DNA from: Deltaproteobacteria bacterium
Lineage (GTDB): Bacteria; UBA10199; JACPAL01
Direction: 5' to 3'
Length of the DNA: 64,000 nt
NCBI GenBank assembly: GCA_016180855.1
Contig: JACPAL010000003.1
Location: forward strand, 1-64,000
The position numbers and the translations under genes were made by a program. The first letter of the stretch is position 1. Each line of letters opens with the position of its first letter. This document shows positions 27,239 through 57,992 of this stretch, piece by piece. A model generated the notes under the pieces. That model was not told where the DNA came from, made no database searches, and saw only the letters and a list, made by a program, of their open reading frames with translations.

Positions 27239-27758
27239 CCCATCTTCCTATATTGAACAGACAGGACAAATCATTTCCGAGCTGGAAAAGTTTGGTTTGG
27301 CCCCAGTCCTCATTGGTGGTATGGCCCTTGTTATCCTGGGCTCACGGCGTGTCACACGAGATTTCGATTTTCTGGTTTCCAAAGAGGCACGCGATCAAGA
27401 GGGGATCATCAAGGTCTTTTATAAAAATGGCTTCGAACTGGCCTCGAAGATTGATCAACAAGGAGAGATTGTTTCGACCATCGACAATGAGCGAGTTGCC
27501 TCTATCCGCCTGAAGCTGGATGTTCCTTCAAGCGCCCATTTTTTGAATCGACAAACAGGGTTACGCATTGACCTTCTTTTTGATTTTCCGTTTCCAGCCG
27601 ATGAAATCGCCTTGCGTGCCAGAAAGAAAAAAATACATTCATATTGCTTTCGCGTTGCCTCCCGAAAAGATCTTCTTCGCCTGAAAGAAGTAGCACGAAG
27701 GAAGAGAAATCTCGCGGCAGATGTTCAAGACGTGGAGTTCTTGAAGAAACTTCGATGA
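27231..27758 (+). CDS. Nucleotidyltransferase (AbiEii/MNT-like)
   Basis: A 175-residue protein of the polymerase-beta nucleotidyltransferase superfamily. The signature is L-I-G-G-M-A-L (about 28-34) then R-V-T-R-D-F-D-F (41-48), giving the metal-binding pair Asp44 and Asp46. A third acid in R-L-K-L-D-V or L-R-I-D-L-L-F-D fits the fold. A C-terminal helical part (R-K-D-L-L-R-L-K-E-V-A-R-R-K) is typical of the family. Such proteins serve as toxins of the AbiE kind or as antitoxins. It overlaps both the upstream small gene (8 bases) and the downstream kinase gene (ATGA), implying translational coupling of all three. Confidence 0.8.
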   Translation: MADPSSYIEQTGQIISELEKFGLAPVLIGGMALVILGSRRVTRDFDFLVSKEARDQEGIIKVFYKNGFELASKIDQQGEIVSTIDNERVASIRLKLDVPSSAHFLNRQTGLRIDLLFDFPFPADEIALRARKKKIHSYCFRVASRKDLLRLKEVARRKRNLAADVQDVEFLKKLR

Positions 27759-30700
27759 GGCGGATCACAAAATTGGGTGAGGGGCTTGGTGGCGTTGTTT
27801 CTCTTGTCGAGGCAAAGGGTCAACGCGTTGCCCTCAAACAACTAAATATTGATCAGGGAAAACTGACCCCGGAAGAAGTTTTAGAGAACTTCAAACGGGA
27901 GTTTACGACACTCAAAAGACTTAATCATCCACACATTGTCCGTATCATCGATTTCGGGAGGGACGATGAAGGCAGATATTTTTTTACGAGCGAGTACATT
28001 GAGGGGAAAAACATCTTTGAGGCAACAAGGGAGTGGTCACCTGAAGAGGTGAATTTACTCTTTATACAGGTCTTAAGGGCCCTCGGTTATTTACATCGGG
28101 AACGAATCTATCATTTCGACATTAAACCTCAAAATATACTCGTTACGGTATCGACTTCCGGCGAGAAAATAGCCAAATTGATCGATTTTGGACTTGTTGC
28201 GTTTCGTAAGGAGGGGATTCTTGCTGGAACACCCGCCTATATGGCCCCAGAAAACCTTCTTGGGGGAGGCTCTGATGGTCGCGCCGATCTCTATTCGTTG
28301 GGCATTACCTGGTACGAGTGCCTCGCCGGCCAGAATCCGTTTCGAACAGCCAATTTAATGGAGACTCTTGAAAGGCAGCGCCACTGGACACCACTACCTA
28401 TTTCGCAGCAATATTCGGATATTCCTTCCTACCTCGACCCCATTTTTGAAAAAATATTAAGAAAGAATCCGTCGGAGCGCTACCATACAGCCCATCAAGT
28501 GATTCGCGATCTGAACTGGCTGGGGCAGAAAAACTATCCGTTAGAGACAGAGGCAACGGCCCTTGCTTATATTCCGGGAGAAGGTCGGTTGATCGGTCGA
28601 GAAATAGAATGGAAAAATCTGCTGCATTTCTATGGTCAGATTTTCCAATCTCATACGATTCCTCAAGGAGGTCTCTTTATCACAGGAGAGATTGGAACAG
28701 GGAAGTCACGTCTTTTAAGCGAACTCAAGTATCACGCCCAACTTCAAGGTGTACAGGTCCTACCCCTAACGGAGGTCAAGAGAGAGGATATTCGGGGAGA
28801 TACCTTGCTTCTAGCAGACAACGCGGACAATGAAACAGTTAATTTAGCAAGAAAATGGCTGAGCCAATTTTATCCCTATTCAATTATGATCTGTCTCGCA
28901 GGCCCTATCGATTTACAGGTTGATTCTTTACATAAAATTTCATTGGACAACTTTGACAAGAAAGAAGTCGGAGAATTCGTTTCTTCCGTTCTGGGCATTG
29001 AGAATCCGCCCGATTTGATCGTGGCTCCCTTTAACTCAAGAAGTGGAGGAAATCCCCTCTATCTGACAGGCCTTTTACAGGCGCTGATCCACGCCCAACA
29101 AATATTCGACGAACATGGGCAATGGAATGCAGAACTGATTGAGGGACTTCCTCTTGCGGAGGAAAAATGGGATCTCCCTTTGAAACTAAAAAATTATCAT
29201 AAAGAGACGTTTTCTCGCTTATCCCTTCCTGCGAAGAAGCTTTTGATCGGCATAGCCGTTTCAAAAACTCCACTGACCAGAACTCTTGTTGACAAGCTAG
29301 GTTTTAAGATTAGCTCCCGGGATTGGGAATCTCTCTTGGCTGCACAGTTGGTTTTATGGAAACCAAAAGAAGAAACGCTGGAATTCAAAAATGTCAGTTT
29401 AAAAGACTGGGTTTCAGGGCATGTCGATTCCTCTTTGTTGGCCTCGGTTCATCAGGCCTTGGGTGAGTTGTTTTCTCAACTTCAAGATACCAAAGAGGTG
29501 GCATGGTATCATCTTGGCTTGGGCAAAGGAAGGTCTTCGGAACGTTTTCAACTTATTTTACAATATGCAGAATATGTGGTGTCTCGAGACGACTGGGTAG
29601 AGGCGCTCCATGTCTTTCGGACAGCTCGGCTTTTTTCTTCAGAAATTCAAGATCGAATCAAGGCCTCTCTTGGTGAGGTGCAGGCCCTGTTTTTTACCAA
29701 CAACCACAAACAGGCGCTTGATCTCCTAAAGGAGACCCACAAACTTCTCAAAGAAAATCCTTCGGCCCATTGGGAATGGGTCGAAGAATGCCTTCGTGAA
29801 ATGACGATGATTTATATCAAAATGAGGGAATTTGACTCTGCCAAAGAGGTTCTGGAGGGAGCGATGTCTCTTATGGAGAGTCAAATCCGAGAACAGGTGG
29901 ATCCAAGGATCCTCTTTTTGCGTAATCTGCAGGCCAGTATCAAAATGAGGGAAGGATTTATTGATGAAGCGGCGAGGGTTTTCGATGAGAATTATAAAAA
30001 GTGGAAATCCCTTTCAAATGATCAGCAACGGAAGGTTTTGAATAACGAACTGGGGCTTACTTGGCTGGCACAAAACAAGGTAGAAGAGGCGATTCAGGTT
30101 TTTGAAGAAGAGATAAGTTATTATAAAAAAATAGGTAATATCAGAAAGCAGGCGTATGCATTTTATGGGCTTGCACAATGCTACGTTACTCTCGAACAAT
30201 GGGAAGTGGCAAGAAAATATTACGAGACATGCCTCAATTTAAGCTTGAAAAGTAGTGCCAAGGAATATCTATTTTATGCCCACAACGGCCTGGGAAAGAT
30301 AGCTCATCTTCAGAATGATTGGGAGACCTCTAAAAATCATTATCAGCATGCCTTAGAGTTGGCACAACACCTGGGAGATGAGGAGAGTAGTCTCGCTATT
30401 GCCCTCAATCTGGCGATGATTTATCGGAACCAGGGGGATCGATCCAATGCCTCCCTTTTTCTTCGCCATCTCATCAGTATCTTGGAGCAACTGAGCAATC
30501 GTTCGTTAACCTTGACACAGTATTTATGCCAAGCTTACCTTGAATCGGGCAGACTGAATTTTGAAAAAGGTGATCGGGGTGGAGCGTGCATCGCCTACCG
30601 TGAGGCGATCCGGTTGATAGATCATTGCAGCAGGTTGGAGTCCCTTCGTGCAGACGCCTTGTTGGGTTACGAACAAGCCTCTGCCACTGTAGAAGAAAAG

Positions 30701-30802
30701 GTGGAATCGAAGGTTGTCTCAAGCAAAAACGATTTAAAAACATCAAAGATCACCGAAAAAGATGTGAAGACCTTAATGGAGACACAGCTCCTAAAGAAAT
30801 GA
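27755..30802 (+). CDS. Large Ser/Thr kinase - AAA/STAND-like ATPase - TPR protein
   Basis: A 1015-residue protein. N-terminal kinase (about 5-255): glycine loop L-G-E-G-L-G-G-V-V, Lys28, H-F-D-I-K-P-Q-N (Asp122; Phe replaces the usual Arg, a non-RD kinase), D-F-G (144-146), G-T-P-A-Y-M-A-P-E. Then a P-loop ATPase with G-E-I-G-T-G-K-S (311-318) and Walker B-like D-T-L-L-L-A-D-N. The C-terminal 450 residues are helical TPR-type repeats (A-Y-A-F-Y-G-L-A-Q-C, F-Y-A-H-N-G-L-G-K-I). This order resembles PknK/STAND signalling kinases. No membrane segment is seen. I chose the ATG at 27755, overlapping the nucleotidyltransferase stop; the frame is open a further 37 codons upstream. It is coupled to a lipoprotein gene downstream. 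Confidence 0.87.
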   Translation: MRRITKLGEGLGGVVSLVEAKGQRVALKQLNIDQGKLTPEEVLENFKREFTTLKRLNHPHIVRIIDFGRDDEGRYFFTSEYIEGKNIFEATREWSPEEVNLLFIQVLRALGYLHRERIYHFDIKPQNILVTVSTSGEKIAKLIDFGLVAFRKEGILAGTPAYMAPENLLGGGSDGRADLYSLGITWYECLAGQNPFRTANLMETLERQRHWTPLPISQQYSDIPSYLDPIFEKILRKNPSERYHTAHQVIRDLNWLGQKNYPLETEATALAYIPGEGRLIGREIEWKNLLHFYGQIFQSHTIPQGGLFITGEIGTGKSRLLSELKYHAQLQGVQVLPLTEVKREDIRGDTLLLADNADNETVNLARKWLSQFYPYSIMICLAGPIDLQVDSLHKISLDNFDKKEVGEFVSSVLGIENPPDLIVAPFNSRSGGNPLYLTGLLQALIHAQQIFDEHGQWNAELIEGLPLAEEKWDLPLKLKNYHKETFSRLSLPAKKLLIGIAVSKTPLTRTLVDKLGFKISSRDWESLLAAQLVLWKPKEETLEFKNVSLKDWVSGHVDSSLLASVHQALGELFSQLQDTKEVAWYHLGLGKGRSSERFQLILQYAEYVVSRDDWVEALHVFRTARLFSSEIQDRIKASLGEVQALFFTNNHKQALDLLKETHKLLKENPSAHWEWVEECLREMTMIYIKMREFDSAKEVLEGAMSLMESQIREQVDPRILFLRNLQASIKMREGFIDEAARVFDENYKKWKSLSNDQQRKVLNNELGLTWLAQNKVEEAIQVFEEEISYYKKIGNIRKQAYAFYGLAQCYVTLEQWEVARKYYETCLNLSLKSSAKEYLFYAHNGLGKIAHLQNDWETSKNHYQHALELAQHLGDEESSLAIALNLAMIYRNQGDRSNASLFLRHLISILEQLSNRSLTLTQYLCQAYLESGRLNFEKGDRGGACIAYREAIRLIDHCSRLESLRADALLGYEQASATVEEKVESKVVSSKNDLKTSKITEKDVKTLMETQLLKK

Positions 30803-49989: not shown

Positions 49990-50673
49990 CTAGCTCCTTG
50001 AGACGGCAAAATCATCGTAATCACAGGCCGATGGAGAGTGGGTCGCATTGCCGTCGGTCAAGATTCCAAATCCGATTGGATTCGCCCTCGGTTTTTCCTT
50101 AAAAATTCTCTGGTAGTCGTTTAAGACATCCACCTTGATCTCCTGCCAGCTGCCGGGCGAACCTCGATTCATCACCACAAAATATGCCTTTCCCGGCTTT
50201 TTAACAGCGACGGTTCCTACGGATAAGGAACTGCTCCAGACATATTTCAGGCTGTTGCCGGTGTATCCGCCGAAAACGACGTAGACACCGCAGGCACTGT
50301 CATTTTTTGTCGGTTCGGATTCCTTCGCCCCTTGCGGGAGGAGACGGGCCCGCCAACGCCATTGGAAGATCGGGTGTTTTTCCAATTCCCAGTGAAACCG
50401 CCGAAAAATCTGGATGGAGATATCTTGGTCATCCTTTCCCGCCAGATAACGATTCCCGTTCTCTTCACGAACCTCATACACCTGCCGTGCCTTCCCCCCC
50501 TGAAACGGGAAGGTTCGAAAGTGCCTTGGAAATTTTTGAACGAAGCTGTTCGAAAAATTTTCTATTTGTAAAGGGGCGTTGGGGGGACCTGGATCTCTTT
50601 CTTCGGCGGGTAAATTGGAGCAAATTCCGCTCCAAAATGAGAAAGTCAAAAGAACAACAGTCGATTTATTCAT
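49990..50673 (-). CDS. DUF3047 exported protein
   Basis: A 227-residue protein with a signal peptide (about 1-22). The mature part has the DUF3047 look: W-R-W-R-A-R-L-L-P, the D-S-A-C-G-V-Y-V-V-F-G-G segment, Y-V-W-S-S-S-L, Y-F-V-V-M-N-R-G and the C-terminal G-I-L-T-D-G-N-A-T-H-S. The function of this family is unknown; the fold is probably a beta sandwich. It overlaps tonB by eight bases, the last gene of the cobalamin operon. Confidence 0.8.
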   Translation of the reverse strand: MNKSTVVLLTFSFWSGICSNLPAEERDPGPPNAPLQIENFSNSFVQKFPRHFRTFPFQGGKARQVYEVREENGNRYLAGKDDQDISIQIFRRFHWELEKHPIFQWRWRARLLPQGAKESEPTKNDSACGVYVVFGGYTGNSLKYVWSSSLSVGTVAVKKPGKAYFVVMNRGSPGSWQEIKVDVLNDYQRIFKEKPRANPIGFGILTDGNATHSPSACDYDDFAVSRS

Positions 50674-51208
50674 AATTCAACCAGACGAAGATGGGTTCCT
50701 TATAGAGGGGGTACGGCACCCCTTTTTGAACCGTTTTTAAGGCAGCCTCATCAAAAATCGTTTGACCGGAAGACTGCTCTACCACCAGCTGCGACAAACC
50801 ACCCTCCCCGTTAATTTGAAATCGAACACCAACCTTTCCGCTCTTTCCCATTTTCTGGGCGAGGTACGGATAATATCGGTTTTTTTCGATTTGTGTACGA
50901 ATCTTTGCAAGAAGCGGATCCGTACCCTCCGGGCCGGACCCGGTTGGATTTAATACACCTTCACGCCCTGCCTGGAGGGGACCACTTGTTTTATTTCCCC
51001 TCCCGCCACTCGTCGACCCACCTTCCGAAGGCCAAGGGGAGGGTGTTCCTCCGGATAAAACAACTTGAATTCGCTCCTCTCCACCGGCGAGCGGAGAGGG
51101 GGGAAAATGGAAAAACAGAGAGGCAACAAGGGCCCCACCACAGTGGAGCCCCAAAGAGATAACAATGAATCGAAAGAGTCGAATCAAACTAGGCTGTTGC
51201 CGATTCAC
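50666..51208 (-). CDS. tonB: TonB energy transducer
   Basis: A 180-residue TonB. There is one N-terminal membrane anchor (about 12-32), a Gly/Ser/Pro-rich periplasmic linker and a C-terminal TonB domain (about 100-180: R-Y-Y-P-Y-L-A-Q-K, G-K-V-G-V-R-F-Q-I, S-S-G-Q-T-I-F-D-E-A-A). The linker is short and lacks the typical Pro-Glu/Pro-Lys repeats. TonB passes the proton-motive force to outer-membrane receptors; here its natural partner is the receptor encoded at the head of the operon. ExbB and ExbD are not in the window. Confidence 0.88.
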   Translation of the reverse strand: MNRQQPSLIRLFRFIVISLGLHCGGALVASLFFHFPPSPLAGGEERIQVVLSGGTPSPWPSEGGSTSGGRGNKTSGPLQAGREGVLNPTGSGPEGTDPLLAKIRTQIEKNRYYPYLAQKMGKSGKVGVRFQINGEGGLSQLVVEQSSGQTIFDEAALKTVQKGVPYPLYKEPIFVWLNYE

Positions 51209-51704
51209 GAAGCGCCGACCAGGAGCGACTCAACAATGCGAAGCCGCTGAAGAGCGTTGCCGTGTACAGCAGATCTCCGATCAGGGTATTTTGGAAGAAC
51301 GGGATTGCTGCGATGTAACAGGTGACAAGGCCATCAACTGTTTTTGGATAGAACACCCCAACGAGCCAGACTCCGAGATTGGAGAGCAGAAAGAAGAGAA
51401 CGGAGCTTACAAGGGCAGCCCCCGTCACGCGGAAAAAGCTCTTCCGCTGTGAGACAAACTGACCGATTGCCACAATGAGCAGAAAGCTTAGATAGACCAG
51501 CGGCATCTCCGGATGAAAACCGAGTATGAGATCACTCAGAAACATCGCCACAAGCGGTAAACTATACGCCCACTGTTTCGGAAGGTGAGCTCCTCCGAAG
51601 AGGGCGATCGCCGTGATCGGTGCGAAATTCCAGGGATGTGGAATCAGCCGACTCAAGGCAGCCGCGAGGACGATAGCGATGACAGTCAGGATACGAGGTT
51701 TCAT
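51189..51704 (-). CDS. DUF6580-like integral membrane protein
   Basis: A 171-residue membrane protein with five or six hydrophobic segments, starting M-K-P-R-I-L-T-V. The segment N-F-A-P-I-T-A-I-A-L-F-G-G-A and the L-P-L-V-A-M-F-L-S-D pattern are typical of DUF6580, which resembles ECF-transporter substrate subunits. In a cobalamin operon it is a fair candidate for moving cobalamin or a precursor across the inner membrane (inference). I chose the ATG at 51704; the frame opens seven codons earlier. It overlaps tonB by 20 bases. Confidence 0.72.
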   Translation of the reverse strand: MKPRILTVIAIVLAAALSRLIPHPWNFAPITAIALFGGAHLPKQWAYSLPLVAMFLSDLILGFHPEMPLVYLSFLLIVAIGQFVSQRKSFFRVTGAALVSSVLFFLLSNLGVWLVGVFYPKTVDGLVTCYIAAIPFFQNTLIGDLLYTATLFSGFALLSRSWSALRESATA

Positions 51705-51737
51705 AATTTTCTCCTTTTCAATCAATTAATGATGAAC

Positions 51738-52985
51738 TCACTTTTCAGTAGCCACCGCCACCGGTGGATCGAGCCTTAAATAACGCCCCAATCTCCTACG
51801 TGTTTCAAGGTCATAAACAAAGGTTCCACTATTTTCAAGGGTTGAACCGCGATCGGCCACCATCAAGGTTGACCCAACAGCCAGGTCACCAATAAATCCC
51901 CCATCGCTGAAATGCCAAGGTTCTGGATCGAGGACAAGACGATCGACATCAAACGACCGGACTTCAGCCGAATGAGGGGTGAAATCGTCCTGATTGGTGA
52001 AATTCAAGGTGAAGAAACCTCGACGACCGCTAATTTCAATATCTCCGGGCGACCCGCTCATGAGGAACCGATTGTACAGTTCTTCATGTCCAATGAAGTA
52101 GCCCCCGACAATCCTCGCATTGAGATCAAAAAACCCGACGGCACGACCTTCCGGAGGGAAAAAATTGCCAGCGCAGCTAAAAAAGAGCTCTCCAGTCTCT
52201 GCGTGGGCGATGCCGACCGGATTGAGACATTCCGTAAGGGGAAAAACGCGCAGATTATCTTCATCCCCGGTGTAAATTTCCCCTAATTTTCCATCTGTGT
52301 TGGCATAATAGTCGGATTGAAGATCCCCCAAGAGGATGAAGAGCGTGCCCCCGACAGCGACCATGTTGCCGGCAAATGAGTGCATATCTCCATCTGGATT
52401 CATAAAAGAGGTGAAATCAAATCGATTTGGAGCAATCAGACCGGTTGCAAGATCGATCTTTACCACATCTCCCGAAATGGCTGGGTGGTTCAAGGAGACG
52501 TAGGCAAAACCGTCTTTCACGACGACCGCCTGTGGGTTGCTGTTATCCTCGAAGTCGATCTTTTCCACTCCCCCAAAGTTGAAGCAGGAGCTTCCGGTAT
52601 CCACATCCAGGCACTTCAGGGAATCCTCGCCCCACCGCTGGAGTAGATACGCCTTCCGGCCGTAAAGAAAAACGGTTGAATCGGAGTAGACCGGCATAGA
52701 CCGTCCATCGACGAATGAAGATCCCTTCTCACTAAATACCAGGGCATTTCCACGTGCGGCGACATAATCGCCCTCGACGACGACCGAGAGTTTTTCGGGA
52801 GCGGGCGGTGGATTGACAACTCCTTCATCTTTTTCAACCCCTCCATCATCCCGGGAGCGGTTCCCTCCGCCTCCCACAGGCCCGGTTCCCGGACGGGGTT
52901 CGTAATCGTCCTCTGAAAAGATTCCACAGGCCGCCAAGAGACCGGCGGCTGTAGAGGCTATTGCTGTGATGTGACGTGCTTGCAT
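51738..52985 (-). CDS. Surface beta-propeller lipoprotein, second of two
   Basis: A 415-residue lipoprotein: lipobox L-A-A-C at about residues 17-20, then a Gly-rich linker and a repeat-rich beta domain (about 65-410). It is homologous to the propeller lipoprotein encoded at 54589. Both have an E-C-x-N-P segment, T-G-[EK]-[IL]-F-[FV]-x-C-A and a final Y-x-L or F-L-D-x-x-T stretch. A propeller fold is inferred from that pattern. No enzyme motif is seen. By analogy with BtuG it may bind cobalamin at the surface. GAAAGGGGA precedes the ATG. Confidence 0.72.
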   Translation of the reverse strand: MQARHITAIASTAAGLLAACGIFSEDDYEPRPGTGPVGGGGNRSRDDGGVEKDEGVVNPPPAPEKLSVVVEGDYVAARGNALVFSEKGSSFVDGRSMPVYSDSTVFLYGRKAYLLQRWGEDSLKCLDVDTGSSCFNFGGVEKIDFEDNSNPQAVVVKDGFAYVSLNHPAISGDVVKIDLATGLIAPNRFDFTSFMNPDGDMHSFAGNMVAVGGTLFILLGDLQSDYYANTDGKLGEIYTGDEDNLRVFPLTECLNPVGIAHAETGELFFSCAGNFFPPEGRAVGFFDLNARIVGGYFIGHEELYNRFLMSGSPGDIEISGRRGFFTLNFTNQDDFTPHSAEVRSFDVDRLVLDPEPWHFSDGGFIGDLAVGSTLMVADRGSTLENSGTFVYDLETRRRLGRYLRLDPPVAVATEK

Positions 52986-53488
52986 GAATGTCCCCTTTCT
53001 AATGTTTGGTTAAGATCTTCAATCTTTTTTTCTAGCGCCTTTTGCCTTCCTAGAATTTCCTTCTCACGAAGATCGCTTTGATCAATAAAATGTTGCTGAC
53101 GATTTAGATTTTTATACGGGCTTTTGGCGTTGTAGTCCTGGAAGGAGGGGAAGTACTCGAGAAGGCCCCAGTAGTCGAGGCAAAAGGCGAGGTGCGGTTT
53201 TATGTGATCTGTATAGATGGGGGTGGAGATATCCCCCCAAAAGAGTTCAAAGAGACGGAGTACCCCATAAAAGAGGACGATACTGGAGATCCTCGGGTGC
53301 TCTTCCCAGAATTTCTTGATCGGCGAAAAAAGACTGGGCCACTTGGAGCCGTTTTCAAGTGCCTTGAGACCCTTATGGATCTCTTGGGCCAGTGAATCAT
53401 CAATGGCTATTTGAGCCAGCGGGAGCGGCAAGGATGTTCTGACAGGATAGGCCCCTGTGCGAGCAAGTTTTAAGCCGACCATGAACAT
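52958..53488 (-). CDS. Hypothetical protein in cobalamin operon
   Basis: A 176-residue protein of no known family. A hydrophobic segment lies at about 70-85 (I-S-S-I-V-L-F-Y-G-V-L-R-L). The C-terminus, about 125-170, is a charged coiled coil (L-R-E-K-E-I-L-G-R-Q-K-A-L-E-K-K-I-E-D-L). There is no signal peptide. It overlaps the propeller lipoprotein gene by 28 bases and ends the upstream lipoprotein gene by one base. It is real by operon placement; function open. Confidence 0.55.
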   Translation of the reverse strand: MFMVGLKLARTGAYPVRTSLPLPLAQIAIDDSLAQEIHKGLKALENGSKWPSLFSPIKKFWEEHPRISSIVLFYGVLRLFELFWGDISTPIYTDHIKPHLAFCLDYWGLLEYFPSFQDYNAKSPYKNLNRQQHFIDQSDLREKEILGRQKALEKKIEDLNQTLERGHSCKHVTSQQ

Positions 53489-54588
53489 TATGGCCTCCTC
53501 CCGTTCACAACCGCCACGGCATCAAGATCAAATCCATTTACAAGGATTGCCTGAAGTCCTGCATCCCGGATCCGGATGTATCGGGCGGAGTTGAGTCCAA
53601 TCTCGTCTAAATCAAAGGAATCCCCTCCTGCGACCGTTGGATCGGTTGGATCGATCTCATTTTCGTCCGGATTGGCAAAGACCGGGAGGATGCCGGCACA
53701 GCCATGATATTCAAGAACCCCAGTGTCACAACAGGGATAAAAAGGCCAATCAGAGACGTCGCATGGGAATTCATAAAAATTCTCCCCATCTTGGGAGAGG
53801 GCAACGCGGGCCGGTTCCGCAAAGGAGCGCGTGGTTGGTTGGCGGTTCGGCCCCTCAACAAAAAATGGGTTTTCAAAGACGATCAAATCCGGGCCGTCAC
53901 CGTTGCAAATCTCATAATCGGTCAACTCAAGGATAATTTCACCGCGGCCGAGATTGACAACGTCATGACCCCCCTGACAGCAACCCTCTCCCTTGGGAGG
54001 ACCCAAGGCCCGATCCAGATCCTGGTTTTCAGAAAAACCGCGACCCGGAGAGAATGAGACAACACGATCCGCATACGGATCGGCCGTTCGCGGAAGCGGA
54101 TCACAGTCGACGAACTCTCTTGGCTCTGCAGTTGTCGGGGTGCCAGCCGTTGTTGATTCCGTCGCAGAGGCGGCGGATGGGGTCTCCCGGATCACCAGAT
54201 AGGTAGAGCCGCTCTTGTTACCCGATGTTGCTCGTATAAAGGTTGCTCCCGTTCCACGGGCCGTGACAAGACCTTTTGTATCAACCGTTGCAATCGTCTC
54301 GTCGTCTGATTTCCAAATGACCCCCTCTCCCGCGGATGGAGAGGGTAACGAAGAAGGCTGTTCTAACGTGATTTCTGTCTGGAGTTGCCGTCTCGATCCG
54401 ATTCCCTCAAGCGCCAGATAGGGCGGTTTGGTAACCACCTTGGTGATCGTCTCCTCATCGGAATTCGACCCGGCTGAGGAGGGGGGAGAGGAGACAGGAG
54501 GGGACGGTGTTGTCTGGTTCTGCAGACGAAATTCCTCCCCAAGACAACCCGATAAGAAAAACAATGTTAGAATAAGCAACAACCTCAT
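53488..54588 (-). CDS. Surface lipoprotein with Ig-like (Big_2) domain
   Basis: A 366-residue lipoprotein, lipobox F-L-S-G-C at about residue 15. The segment G-V-I-W-K-S-D-D-E-T-I-A-T-V-D-T-K-G-L-V-T-A is a Big_2 Ig-like domain (about 65-135). A Ser/Thr-rich linker follows. The C-terminal domain (about 175-366: V-V-S-F-S-P-G-R-G-F, D-L-I-V-F-E-N-P-F-F-V-E-G) has the look of a surface-protein beta domain with D-rich, possibly Ca-binding, loops. It is likely displayed on the outer membrane in the cobalamin operon. Substrate unknown. Confidence 0.75.
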   Translation of the reverse strand: MRLLLILTLFFLSGCLGEEFRLQNQTTPSPPVSSPPSSAGSNSDEETITKVVTKPPYLALEGIGSRRQLQTEITLEQPSSLPSPSAGEGVIWKSDDETIATVDTKGLVTARGTGATFIRATSGNKSGSTYLVIRETPSAASATESTTAGTPTTAEPREFVDCDPLPRTADPYADRVVSFSPGRGFSENQDLDRALGPPKGEGCCQGGHDVVNLGRGEIILELTDYEICNGDGPDLIVFENPFFVEGPNRQPTTRSFAEPARVALSQDGENFYEFPCDVSDWPFYPCCDTGVLEYHGCAGILPVFANPDENEIDPTDPTVAGGDSFDLDEIGLNSARYIRIRDAGLQAILVNGFDLDAVAVVNGRRP

Positions 54589-55788
54589 TTATCTCTCCAC
54601 AAAAGCAATCGAAGACGGGGCCGCACCGACATTGATCGGCCCTTCCAAAACCGCTCCCGTTGCCGGATCTAAAAACAAGACACCACTCTGTTCGGGGTTT
54701 CGATCCCCCACCAGTAAATCCCCCTCATCGCTCACGGCGATCTCCTGAAGATAGGAGCCACTTCGGTACAGCACAGTAAATTCAGAATTCTCCTCATTCA
54801 TGGAAAAACGGACGATACGATTCTCGGAGTAGTCTGTGGCCCCAACCACCGCGAAACCATGTTCACCGGAAACCTCCAGGTCTCCGAGCCAGCCATCCAG
54901 AAACAGATCATCCAGAAAGATCCCCTCGGTCTCAAAAGGTTCGATACGTACCGCCTCCACCCCACCATAAGGGGAGCGGAGATCAAAAAAGTCGGCACAA
55001 CCGACAAAAATTTTCCCAGTCTTTGGTGAGGTGCTCATGGAGAAGGGGTTACGACATTCCAGCGTCAGGGCGGCATCAATCTGCTCATTTCGGGTATCGA
55101 GACGGAGCAGTTTGCCCGGTTGGTCGGGACGGAGCGCCAGATTTCCCGGCAGATCCTGGATAGCGATGTAAAGCTTGTTGTCGATCAATAAGAGGGAGGA
55201 GGCGCGCGCAAAACGATCTCCGTCATCCCACGTGAATGGTGTGAGGTCGATTGTCCGAGCGATCGTCCCGGTTGAAAGATCAATGATGAGCAGGTCGTCG
55301 ACGGTCAATCCCGGCGTCTGATTCTCCTCCGGTTCGTACAGCGTCACATACGCCTTAGAAGCGCTGACGACGGCGATATCTTGCGGATTGGTGGCAAGTC
55401 CCGTGGACAACTGAAGAACGGTTTTGAAATCGGAAGGGTCAATGATCTGAATATTGTCGGCCCCTTTCCGGTTGATCACATAAATGAGACCACTGAAGGA
55501 GCGAACGGTCGCGTCGCTATGCGTTGTTGTCAAATGGGTTGAAGCGGTTCGGGGCGATTGAAGGGGAATGACGTTGATCGTCCCGGTCGAATCCGTAAAG
55601 TTGGCCCCCAGGATGACGGCAACCTTGCCTTGTACGGCAGGCGTCGATTCCGCAGGGGAAGCGACCGGAGGATTTGGCGGTTGATGAGTCAGCTCCGAAA
55701 TCTCACCACAGCCGATACTTATGAAGAGCGACACAACCCCGATGACCGGGCAGGTGGTACGCTTAAATATTTGCTTCCAACCTTCCAT
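54589..55788 (-). CDS. Surface beta-propeller lipoprotein, first of two
   Basis: About 399 residues, with a lipobox I-S-I-G-C at about residues 22-26. It has a repeat-rich beta domain of propeller type: I-Y-V-I-N-R-K-G-A-D-N-I-Q-I-I-D, L-L-I-I-D-L-S-T-G-T-I-A, L-L-R-L-D-T-R-N, L-E-C-R-N-P-F-S-M, G-K-I-F-V-G-C-A. It is paralogous to the lipoprotein at 51738. Its ATG lies within the end of the receptor gene, with GGACGGAG upstream. Its position directly after the receptor gene parallels BtuB-BtuG pairs, though homology to BtuG is not shown. Confidence 0.75.
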   Translation of the reverse strand: MEGWKQIFKRTTCPVIGVVSLFISIGCGEISELTHQPPNPPVASPAESTPAVQGKVAVILGANFTDSTGTINVIPLQSPRTASTHLTTTHSDATVRSFSGLIYVINRKGADNIQIIDPSDFKTVLQLSTGLATNPQDIAVVSASKAYVTLYEPEENQTPGLTVDDLLIIDLSTGTIARTIDLTPFTWDDGDRFARASSLLLIDNKLYIAIQDLPGNLALRPDQPGKLLRLDTRNEQIDAALTLECRNPFSMSTSPKTGKIFVGCADFFDLRSPYGGVEAVRIEPFETEGIFLDDLFLDGWLGDLEVSGEHGFAVVGATDYSENRIVRFSMNEENSEFTVLYRSGSYLQEIAVSDEGDLLVGDRNPEQSGVLFLDPATGAVLEGPINVGAAPSSIAFVER

Positions 55789-57688
55789 AAAAACTCCGTC
55801 CCGGCAGGGGAAATCCGACGACATCAACCACCTGATCACTTAAGATATTTTTTACATCAAAACTGGTTGTGAGCCACTTAACGGGTGAGATTGAAATACC
55901 GCTTCCCCACAGAAAACGATTCTCCGTCCTGAGGATGTTCTGGGTATCGAGAAAATTGTTATCGAGATAAGTCAGATCGGTATAGATCTGGGCCATGCGA
56001 TAGCGATAATGGAGTCGCCCACTTGCCTCATGAACCGGTCGGCCGGGGAGAAATTTCCCCTCCGTGCCCGGAAACCCCGAGGCATCCTTGGCCCTTTGAA
56101 AGGTGTAATTCGCGGAAAAGGCTGCCTGTTCGGACAGCGGAATCCGCACATCGGTTTCTACCCCTTGAATCCTTGCCTTGGTCAGATTCTCGGCCCGGGC
56201 GGTTAGTTGGGAGGTCTGAAGAAACTGGATCATATCCTCCGTCTGGTTTAGAAAATAGGCGGTCGAGAAGGAGAGCGGGCTTGTTTCCCATGAAAAACCG
56301 ATATCTCCGTTCCATCCCTTTTCTGGCTGGAGGTCCGGATTTCCCAGGAGACTTCCCCGATCCCCGAATAGCTCGGAGAAGCTCGGGATCCGATAGGCCC
56401 TCGCAAAATTCGTCCTCAATACAACGGAAGGCGTTGCATGAAACCGTACTCCCATTTTTCCACTCACGGGATGGAAGTTCGTTTCTCCGGAGGAAAAGTT
56501 GTTCAGGATATGTTCGGTTCGCAGCGAAGGATTCAGGATGATTCTCTCCTCCAGAAGGACGATCTCGTCTTCCAGGCCGATCCCAAATTGGTTTCGGAGG
56601 CTGTTGACCTCCGGGGTGCTCGAAGAAAAATCCTCCGGCAAAAACTGCTCTCCGCGATAATTCATCACGAGCGTCCCTCGTTGAAACCGACCAATCATCC
56701 TCTCAAGACTTGAATCAAACCCATATCCCCAGGTGTTATTACTATTGTCCTGGATTCCGAGTCCGATCTCTCCCTCCTGATCTTTAAACCGTTGTTTTTC
56801 AAAATGGAGAAACGGGGCGAGTGACCATTCCTCCTGTTGCCACCGAAGTTGGGTAACGGTTCGTGTTGAAGAAAGGCTTGCCTTCTCCGAGGTCAATGCC
56901 CCCAATCCAGGGATTCCACGCTCCTCCCTCAAGAAATTTTCCTGGAACTCGAGCGATCCATTGGCGAGTGAACGTCCCATCTTCAAGAGAAGTTTATGGC
57001 GTGTGAGGTCATTATTTTCCCTCTTCTCTGTACGGTCGTCACTGGAATTAAAGGGGGTTCCGTTGTTGTTGAGAAAGGAAAAGTCCCCATCCGTTCGGGT
57101 GAGCGAATAGTTGGCCGCGTAATGACTCGATCGTAATTTTTGGGCCTGAAAAATGGAGGTTTCAAGCGTGTTGAAGGAGCCATAAGAGGTGGAGAGTCGG
57201 GTTGTGTGACCTTTCTTTAACTCTGCAGAGCGGGTTCGGATCAGAATGGCGCCTCCCAAGGCACTGGTCCCAAGACGTGCCGGTACGGCACCCCGGTAGA
57301 TTTCAATCCGCTCAATCTCATTGACGGGAATACTTGCCAGGTTGAAATCCCCTCCTTGCACCGTGTTTAAAAGGAGACCGTCCAGATAGACGGCGACCTG
57401 TTCAGAGGTGGACCCCCGGATGGAGGCGGTGGCGAAGGTATCAAGACCCCCGTACTGCCGTATCTGGAGTCCAGCGGTCTCCGACAGAACCTCTGGAAGA
57501 GAGGTCTTTTGGCCCTGAAGATCTTTTCCCTCAATAATGGTCGTTGAGACCGAAGAGTCGATGGGCGAAGAGGGTGTTGTTGAGGTCGGCTTCTGAACGA
57601 CGATCTCACCCAGCGAGGTTTTATACCCCTGGGCGGACGCCGATAGACAAACAAAAAACAGCACGGAAACGAAAGACTGTCGTCTCAT
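55763..57688 (-). CDS. TonB-dependent receptor, BtuB-like
   Basis: A 641-residue outer-membrane receptor. Signal peptide about 1-20; a short N-terminal segment G-E-I-V-V-Q-K-P that can serve as TonB box; plug domain about 45-150 (L-P-E-V-L-S-E-T-A-G-L, R-G-S-T-S-E-Q-V-A-V-Y-L-D-G, I-E-R-I-E-I-Y-R-G-A); 22-strand barrel to the C-terminal aromatic end. The length and the plug match vitamin B12 receptors. The cobalamin riboswitch upstream supports the substrate. First gene of the operon. Confidence 0.9.
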   Translation of the reverse strand: MRRQSFVSVLFFVCLSASAQGYKTSLGEIVVQKPTSTTPSSPIDSSVSTTIIEGKDLQGQKTSLPEVLSETAGLQIRQYGGLDTFATASIRGSTSEQVAVYLDGLLLNTVQGGDFNLASIPVNEIERIEIYRGAVPARLGTSALGGAILIRTRSAELKKGHTTRLSTSYGSFNTLETSIFQAQKLRSSHYAANYSLTRTDGDFSFLNNNGTPFNSSDDRTEKRENNDLTRHKLLLKMGRSLANGSLEFQENFLREERGIPGLGALTSEKASLSSTRTVTQLRWQQEEWSLAPFLHFEKQRFKDQEGEIGLGIQDNSNNTWGYGFDSSLERMIGRFQRGTLVMNYRGEQFLPEDFSSSTPEVNSLRNQFGIGLEDEIVLLEERIILNPSLRTEHILNNFSSGETNFHPVSGKMGVRFHATPSVVLRTNFARAYRIPSFSELFGDRGSLLGNPDLQPEKGWNGDIGFSWETSPLSFSTAYFLNQTEDMIQFLQTSQLTARAENLTKARIQGVETDVRIPLSEQAAFSANYTFQRAKDASGFPGTEGKFLPGRPVHEASGRLHYRYRMAQIYTDLTYLDNNFLDTQNILRTENRFLWGSGISISPVKWLTTSFDVKNILSDQVVDVVGFPLPGRSFYGRLEANI

Positions 57689-57690
57689 CC

Positions 57691-57709
57691 TCTCTCCCTC
57701 CTCGGGGAG
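57691..57709 (-). promoter_or_regulatory. Hairpin covering the ribosome site of the receptor gene
   Basis: On the minus strand, CTCCC (57705-57709) can pair with GGGAG (57694-57698) across a six-base loop. The GGAGGGAGAGAGG ribosome site lies in or beside this stem, just before the ATG at 57688. It could be the expression platform of the riboswitch, controlling translation. Confidence 0.45.
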
Positions 57710-57730
57710 TCATTACGAAACTATTCATTT

Positions 57731-57905
57731 GCCGGTAGGTCTCCTGACTTGTGGCTAATTCCTTAGAGGGGCCTTCCCATCCATCTTCGCCAGAGGCGCC
57801 GGTGGACAGTGGCCTGATTCCCGCGGCTGTCTAAAAGCCGCCCACTCACAGTGGCGGGACCGTGTTCGATTTACACGAACTTCCCTTGAACCGACGATCT
57901 GGCCC
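57731..57905 (-). ncRNA. Cobalamin riboswitch
   Basis: On the minus strand the leader holds conserved cobalamin-aptamer parts: a GGTCCCGCCACTGTGAGTGG segment (about 57841-57862), GGCCACTGTCC (about 57803-57813, the B12 box region), and the closing AAGTCAGGAGACCTACCGGC (57731-57750). The order and spacing fit Rfam RF00174. It binds adenosyl- or another cobalamin and shuts the downstream genes. Upstream is a TTGACA at 57927-57932 with a poor -10. Confidence 0.95.
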
Positions 57906-57992
57906 TTAAGTAGAGTTGACCAAGGCTGTCAACCCCGAAATTCTAAAAATCACTATTTTTTGTCCAAGCCCCCGTTAAACCTCCAAGGACAT

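Follow-up and report, generated by a model that had tools for sequence, protein, structure and literature searches.

The closest described system is BtuB-BtuG of Bacteroides thetaiotaomicron (PDB 8blw, 8bmx, 8p97; PMC6143338, PMC10404256), in which a TonB-dependent receptor (TBDR) and an adjacent seven-bladed propeller lipoprotein are found together with a cobalamin riboswitch. Wexler et al. (2018) reported that BtuG was exclusive to Bacteroidetes among 313 gut genomes, and explained this by competition in the gut (PMC6143338). A further lipoprotein, BtuH2 (PDB 7BIZ; PMC8941943), consists of an Ig-like N-terminal and a globular C-terminal domain. Many B12-dependent Gram-negative bacteria encode BtuB without BtuCDF, and their inner-membrane transporter is mostly unidentified (PMC6072759). 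BtuM of Thiobacillus denitrificans (PDB 8ovv, 8c7p; PMC6072759) has an S-component fold and a size of about 20 kDa; for CbrT, PMC5997447 was the comparison paper. DUF4465 proteins (BtuJ) are surface B12-binding proteins distributed over eight clades, and in work from 2026 40% of the larger DUF4465 cluster was found near PF16819 propellers (PMC13398666), so that propellers linked to B12 outside of the Bacteroidota have already been hinted at. Here, an eight-gene operon under a cobalamin riboswitch is described, which lies in a window of 64,000 nucleotides (positions 1 to 64,000 of contig JACPAL010000003.1). We consider it probable that these genes serve the scavenging of corrinoids (vitamin B12) in a B12-auxotrophic, Gram-negative host, with capture by BtuB-, BtuG- and BtuH-like proteins and with a DUF6580 protein replacing BtuCDF inside. 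The design BtuB-BtuG-BtuH is known; new are the setting, very probably outside of the Bacteroidota, and the uncharacterised, BtuM-like DUF6580 step.

The cobalamin riboswitch aptamer (RF00174) was found at 57717..57910 (-) with a cmscan score of 79.4 bits (E 6.6e-18; gathering threshold 31.5). The match covered the full length of the model (positions 1-189), and it was the sole RF00174 match in the whole assembly (2.2 Mb, 96% complete). Downstream of it lie eight minus-strand genes, each of which overlaps or abuts the next one, with a largest gap of 12-33 bases. They encode, in this order, the TBDR, propeller lipoprotein 1, an Ig-like lipoprotein, a small unknown protein, propeller lipoprotein 2, the DUF6580 protein, TonB, and a DUF3047 protein. 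Pfam matches were obtained for Plug and TBDR barrel, Big_2, DUF6580, TonB_C, and DUF3047, and with NCBIfam neither the propellers nor DUF6580 and DUF3047 received a name. An earlier note on this DNA had described one riboswitch heading eight same-strand, overlapping or adjacent genes, and this was confirmed by the RF00174 match and the coordinates of the open reading frames. Its range of 50666-57905 has to be extended: the eight-gene run is real, but nearly all of the DUF3047 gene (50673-49990) falls outside of that range.

The first gene of the run, 55763..57688 (-), contains the Plug and barrel matches, and the best end-to-end match of its product in the PDB was BtuB1 of B. thetaiotaomicron (8blw_A; residues 24-633 of 641, E 5.5e-21). 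Directly behind it, and overlapping its end, is the gene of propeller lipoprotein 1 (54589..55788 (-), start approximate; lipobox SIGC). Like BtuG, propeller 1 is thus a predicted lipoprotein that is encoded beside a btuB-like gene under a cobalamin riboswitch. Searches of the PDB with the single sequence of either propeller yielded nothing meaningful, and only a family profile of 34 members, searched against all PDB sequences, was successful. It retrieved the BtuG structures of Bacteroides first (E 4e-9 to 2e-7), with YncE behind them. The AlphaFold model of propeller 1 (pLDDT 88.7, 28 strands) is a seven-bladed propeller. The first six Foldseek matches of this model were BtuGs (E 5e-15 to 1e-12, the best 5.4e-15; next match 5e-10), and the same was true for the first eleven matches with VIA-align (Z 34.1-32.1, rmsd 2.5-2.9). 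The propeller fold and the likeness to BtuG that had been proposed before were therefore recovered for propeller 1, with BtuGs as the nearest solved structures. With a pI of 4.1-5.1, all 34 propeller homologues are acidic, which would be expected from the negative charge of the B12 face in BtuG2 (PMC10404256), and a lipobox is present in both window propellers and in most homologues.

The genomic context of the homologues was analyzed in 146 genomes, 33 of which contain a homologue of propeller 1. In 25 of these 33 genomes a cobalamin riboswitch is found on the same strand at most 8 kb upstream of the best homologue, and a model built in this analysis added one further genome (G028), giving 26 of 33. 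Three of the unlinked genomes (G005, G018, G039) are cut by contig ends. All nine homologues outside of the phylum ('same domain') are linked to a riboswitch, and the linkage expected at random placement is well under 1 by our own estimate from the genome sizes. In about 20 loci the TBDR and propeller genes overlap or lie within 100 bases of one another, several with 4-base stop-start overlaps. The earlier note had considered its reading lost should the homologues be found mostly outside of riboswitch operons, and they were found mostly inside.

The second propeller gene (51738..52985 (-), lipobox LAAC) encodes a paralogue that matches propeller 1 with E 2e-16, and by homology it is also predicted to form a seven-bladed propeller. 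In the tree, propeller 1 grouped with orthologues from the same order, and propeller 2 joined the second propeller of a related genome (G001) on long branches, for which the tool warns of false joining. Judged from these sequences, propeller 2 appears as a fast-evolving paralogue of propeller 1, and the gene was probably duplicated before this family-level lineage arose. The position of propeller 1 is constant, and that of propeller 2 shifts: its gene precedes the TBDR gene in G001 and G003 and is near the operon end here. The long branches and the mobility within the operon would fit a division of labour. In this case propeller 1 would serve as the BtuG lid on the receptor, and propeller 2 would be a carrier of its own, located at the surface or in the periplasm, that might prefer other corrinoids. 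We regard this as possible, with a chance somewhat below even; it refines the reading as a BtuG-type capture system and is not a true opponent of it.

Two side observations concern propeller 2. Soon after its lipid cysteine (window 52985-51738 (-)) there is an acidic run, CGIFSEDD, with CGLLSDDD in the G001 copy (L092:11711-12964 (-)); it resembles the surface export signal of Bacteroidetes, and none is present in propeller 1. In addition, the small protein of 176 amino acids (52958..53488 (-)) keeps company with propeller 2 here and in G001. It has no family match in Pfam or NCBIfam, one possible hydrophobic stretch, and a coiled-coil-like C-terminus. Its one homologue was found in G001; there it lies a short way upstream of the riboswitch in front of propeller 2.

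The third gene, 53488..54588 (-), encodes the Ig-like lipoprotein (Big_2; lipobox LSGC). Its C-terminal 200 residues (53497-54096) match the NCBI model LIC_13355, a domain family named after Leptospira, below the cut-off of the model. The only PDB match of the profile of this domain (A4) was the B12-binding domain of BtuH2 (7biz_A), a weak match over 80 positions (E 0.015) that falls within the C-terminal domain. In the FEN motif, the Asn that is invariant in the family aligns to position 299 of the 7biz chain. Provided that the construct used for crystallisation is extended by two residues at its N-terminus, as its length suggests, this position would be Asn399, which contacts the phosphate of B12. 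The architecture, an Ig-like N-terminal domain followed by a C-terminal domain, is also that of BtuH, in this case with Big_2 instead of the PKD-type Ig domain of BtuH2. Of 50 genome matches of the LIC domain, 38 follow a cobalamin riboswitch at a distance of at most 8 kb. In G103 a protein of 624 amino acids (L118:7934-9808 (-)) fuses a YVTN-type propeller to a LIC/BtuH-like domain, which mirrors the BtuG1-BtuH fusion of B. thetaiotaomicron (PMC10404256). Three genomes (G007, G018, G033) have the LIC domain alone behind the riboswitch, with TBDR, propeller and DUF6580 elsewhere. Taken together, we hold with moderate confidence that the Ig-like lipoprotein is a relative of BtuH, a candidacy that the earlier note had missed. 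An identity as DUF4465 protein was also considered for it and was rejected, as it has no such Pfam match; there is no DUF4465 gene in this operon according to Pfam, in contrast to the BtuJ systems (PMC13398666).

The genome should depend on the import of corrinoids, because it encodes MetH, methylmalonyl-CoA mutase, B12-binding radical SAM proteins and the PduO adenosyltransferase, and no corrin-ring methylases of the cobalamin pathway were found in it (about 4% of the genome is missing); the only members of the tetrapyrrole methylase family were a CobA-HemD fusion and RsmI. A cobalt-uptake operon was considered and rejected due to the lack of corrin synthesis. As had been stated before, the host very probably falls outside of the Bacteroidota. 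No 16S sequence was found in the assembly, but the nearest genomes are all of the 'same class' and the next ones of the 'same domain', with none of the 'same phylum' in between, which would fit a phylum with a single class and not the Bacteroidota.

The sixth gene (51189..51725 (-), probable ATG start at 51704) encodes the DUF6580 membrane protein (PF20221, E 3.6e-57; 193.5 bits, gathering threshold 27). Its model (pLDDT 91.3) has the S-component fold of energy-coupling factor (ECF) transporters, and the best fold in the PDB was BtuM (Z 14.8, rmsd 2.8, 157 residues aligned). With Foldseek the match to BtuM had a TM-score of 0.72 and E 0.019, and other ECF S-components followed. In contrast to the fold, the sequence relates DUF6580 to another Pfam family than BtuM: the sequence profile gave no match to BtuM in the PDB, and its top match, 6fnp, was not significant (E 0.33). 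We take 6fnp to be the ECF transporter whose S-component for B12 is CbrT.

DUF6580 was found in 19 of the 146 genomes. A strong FecCD (BtuC-type) permease was present in none of these 19, compared with 92 of the 127 others (Fisher p 6e-10), and within the class in 0 of 13 compared with 29 of 33 (p 2e-8); both tests ignore shared ancestry. In three genomes (G004, G013, G039) BtuC adjoins the propeller in the operon where other relatives have DUF6580. In this genome there is one weak FecCD match elsewhere in the assembly (E 5.8e-11, 41.6 bits), which is probably an ABC-3 metal permease, so that the absence of BtuC stated in the earlier note holds assembly-wide. None of the 19 genomes with DUF6580 gave a match to EcfT (CbiQ/EcfT), and a complete ECF transporter was rejected for this reason. 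As is the case for BtuM, DUF6580 has a size of about 20 kDa and occurs in genomes without EcfT and without BtuCDF, and beside BtuB-like genes. A scan of named genomes yielded 80 DUF6580 loci from more than ten phyla, 43 of them with a cobalamin riboswitch nearby; in 31 the riboswitch is upstream on the same strand, and in 20 a TBDR gene is directly upstream. In Neomarinimicrobiota (L158) the order riboswitch-TBDR-propeller-DUF6580 is the same. The previous suggestion that DUF6580 might be the inner-membrane step was strongly reinforced by the predicted S-component fold with its match to BtuM, by the riboswitch linkage, and by the lack of overlap with BtuC. DUF6580 is a probable BtuM-like corrinoid transporter of the inner membrane, as judged from the model and the gene context. 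A literature search among open-licence papers retrieved no paper on DUF6580.

Alternatively, the operon could serve corrinoid uptake while DUF6580 carries a related substrate, such as a lower-ligand base, a precursor or cobalt, or has an accessory role, and an unrecognised transporter takes the corrinoid through the inner membrane. This would be compatible with the fact that an S-component fold gives membership and not the substrate, and that BtuM was barely ahead of the folate and biotin S-components (lead in Z of about 1.3). It would also be compatible with the cysteine pattern. BtuM is defined by an invariant Cys, the counterpart of which is uncertain in DUF6580; a near-invariant Cys129 lies in the last helix of DUF6580. 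If a simple offset is assumed, the residue 13 positions after the conserved Asp, where BtuM has its cobalt-binding Cys80, would be an invariant Tyr. Nevertheless, the strict non-overlap with BtuC-type permeases is the pattern expected of a replacement of BtuCDF, import of cobalt would be useless for B12 in a genome that does not synthesize the corrin ring, and in Patescibacteria (L155, L157, L182) DUF6580 follows 400-500 bases behind the riboswitch, and there is no TBDR in the vicinity. A substrate other than corrinoids is therefore unlikely, and DUF6580 as the corrinoid carrier is preferred.

Two further observations were made on the distribution of DUF6580. Patescibacteria, which are thought to lack an outer membrane and to have small biosynthetic repertoires, have DUF6580 close to cobalamin riboswitches also at L190, L191, L175, and L180, in addition to the three loci named above. 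In a metagenome-assembled genome of Fibrimonadaceae (L211:1-10644) the surroundings of DUF6580 and of a BtuG-like propeller gene contain four cobalamin riboswitch matches in a stretch of 9 kb.

Several results weigh against the reading as BtuB-BtuG-BtuH-like capture with a DUF6580 step, in addition to the small lead of BtuM, the ancestry shared among the compared genomes, and the weak BtuH2 match. The TBDR scored 131.9 bits with the NCBIfam BtuB model TIGR01779, below the cut-off of 599.7, and was therefore filed as BtuB-like and not as BtuB. The siderophore-receptor model MxcH outscored the BtuB model in NCBIfam, and over the plug CirA structures scored above BtuB. Neither window propeller has a Pfam match of its own, including DUF5074 (PF16819), which is matched by 6 of the 34 family members, and thus their assignment as propellers is based on the family profile and on the model. 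In family f6 (G007, G014, G023, G033) TBDR, propeller and DUF6580 genes occur without a detected adjacent riboswitch, and many of the named DUF6580 loci have no riboswitch nearby. That the propellers are ordinary YVTN/YncE-type proteins with another role, i.e., periplasmic binding like BtuF or binding of a metal chelate like XusB, could be argued from the low identity of propeller 1 to BtuG (about 17%), the archaeal surface-layer propeller 1l0q directly behind the BtuGs in VIA-align (Z 31.9), XusB propellers among the Foldseek matches, the much faster evolution of propeller 2, and a surface location that is deduced, but it is improbable in view of the first rank of BtuGs in all three comparisons (profile, Foldseek, VIA-align), the riboswitch linkage, the overlap with the BtuB-like gene, the natural propeller-LIC fusion, and the uniformly acidic homologues.

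The operon is proposed to work as follows. At low cellular cobalamin the riboswitch would permit expression. The BtuH-like lipoprotein and one or two of the BtuG-like propeller lipoproteins would capture corrinoids at the cell surface, and propeller 1 may act as a lid on the BtuB-like receptor, to which it would pass the ligand. The TonB encoded in the operon (50666..51208 (-); TonB_C, E 5.7e-14) would power the passage through the outer membrane, and DUF6580, as a solitary protein with an S-component fold, would move the corrinoid across the inner membrane instead of BtuCDF. Compared with BtuB-BtuG of B. thetaiotaomicron, this version would thus differ in its non-Bacteroidetes host, the two propeller paralogues and the lack of BtuCDF.

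The last gene of the run (49990..50673 (-)) encodes the DUF3047 protein (PF11249, E 7.8e-25), and DUF3047 is found at the operon end also in G001 and G005, which represent two related genera. The nuo gene cluster begins about 43 bases past it on the same strand, and read-through from the operon into these complex I genes is possible. RNA folding 3' of the aptamer yielded a hairpin over the ribosome-binding region that was not clearly better than those of shuffled sequences, and promoter and terminator scans gave results near chance. Elsewhere in the window (27644-30802 (+)) a protein of 1052 amino acids combines a Ser/Thr kinase domain, an AAA_16 ATPase and TPR repeats, a protein type that is common in myxobacteria-like lineages.

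Literature searches on BtuN, on BtuG in Acidobacteria and on propellers with cobalamin riboswitches returned nothing relevant. Beyond this locus, it is fairly likely that DUF6580 proteins are widespread, transport B12 as solitary proteins and take the place of BtuCDF in many bacterial phyla (Acidobacteria, Planctomycetes, Verrucomicrobia, Ignavibacteria, Patescibacteria, and others), and that capture by BtuG and BtuH is a design of Gram-negative bacteria in general, which is combined with one or the other inner-membrane step. For the missing inner-membrane transporter of B12, DUF6580 provides a concrete candidate, and this step, if confirmed, would be the most valuable part of the finding. If the reading is true, the BtuG-type lid, and probably also the BtuH domain, extends beyond the Bacteroidetes, and the design would be older or more mobile than assumed and not bound to the gut.

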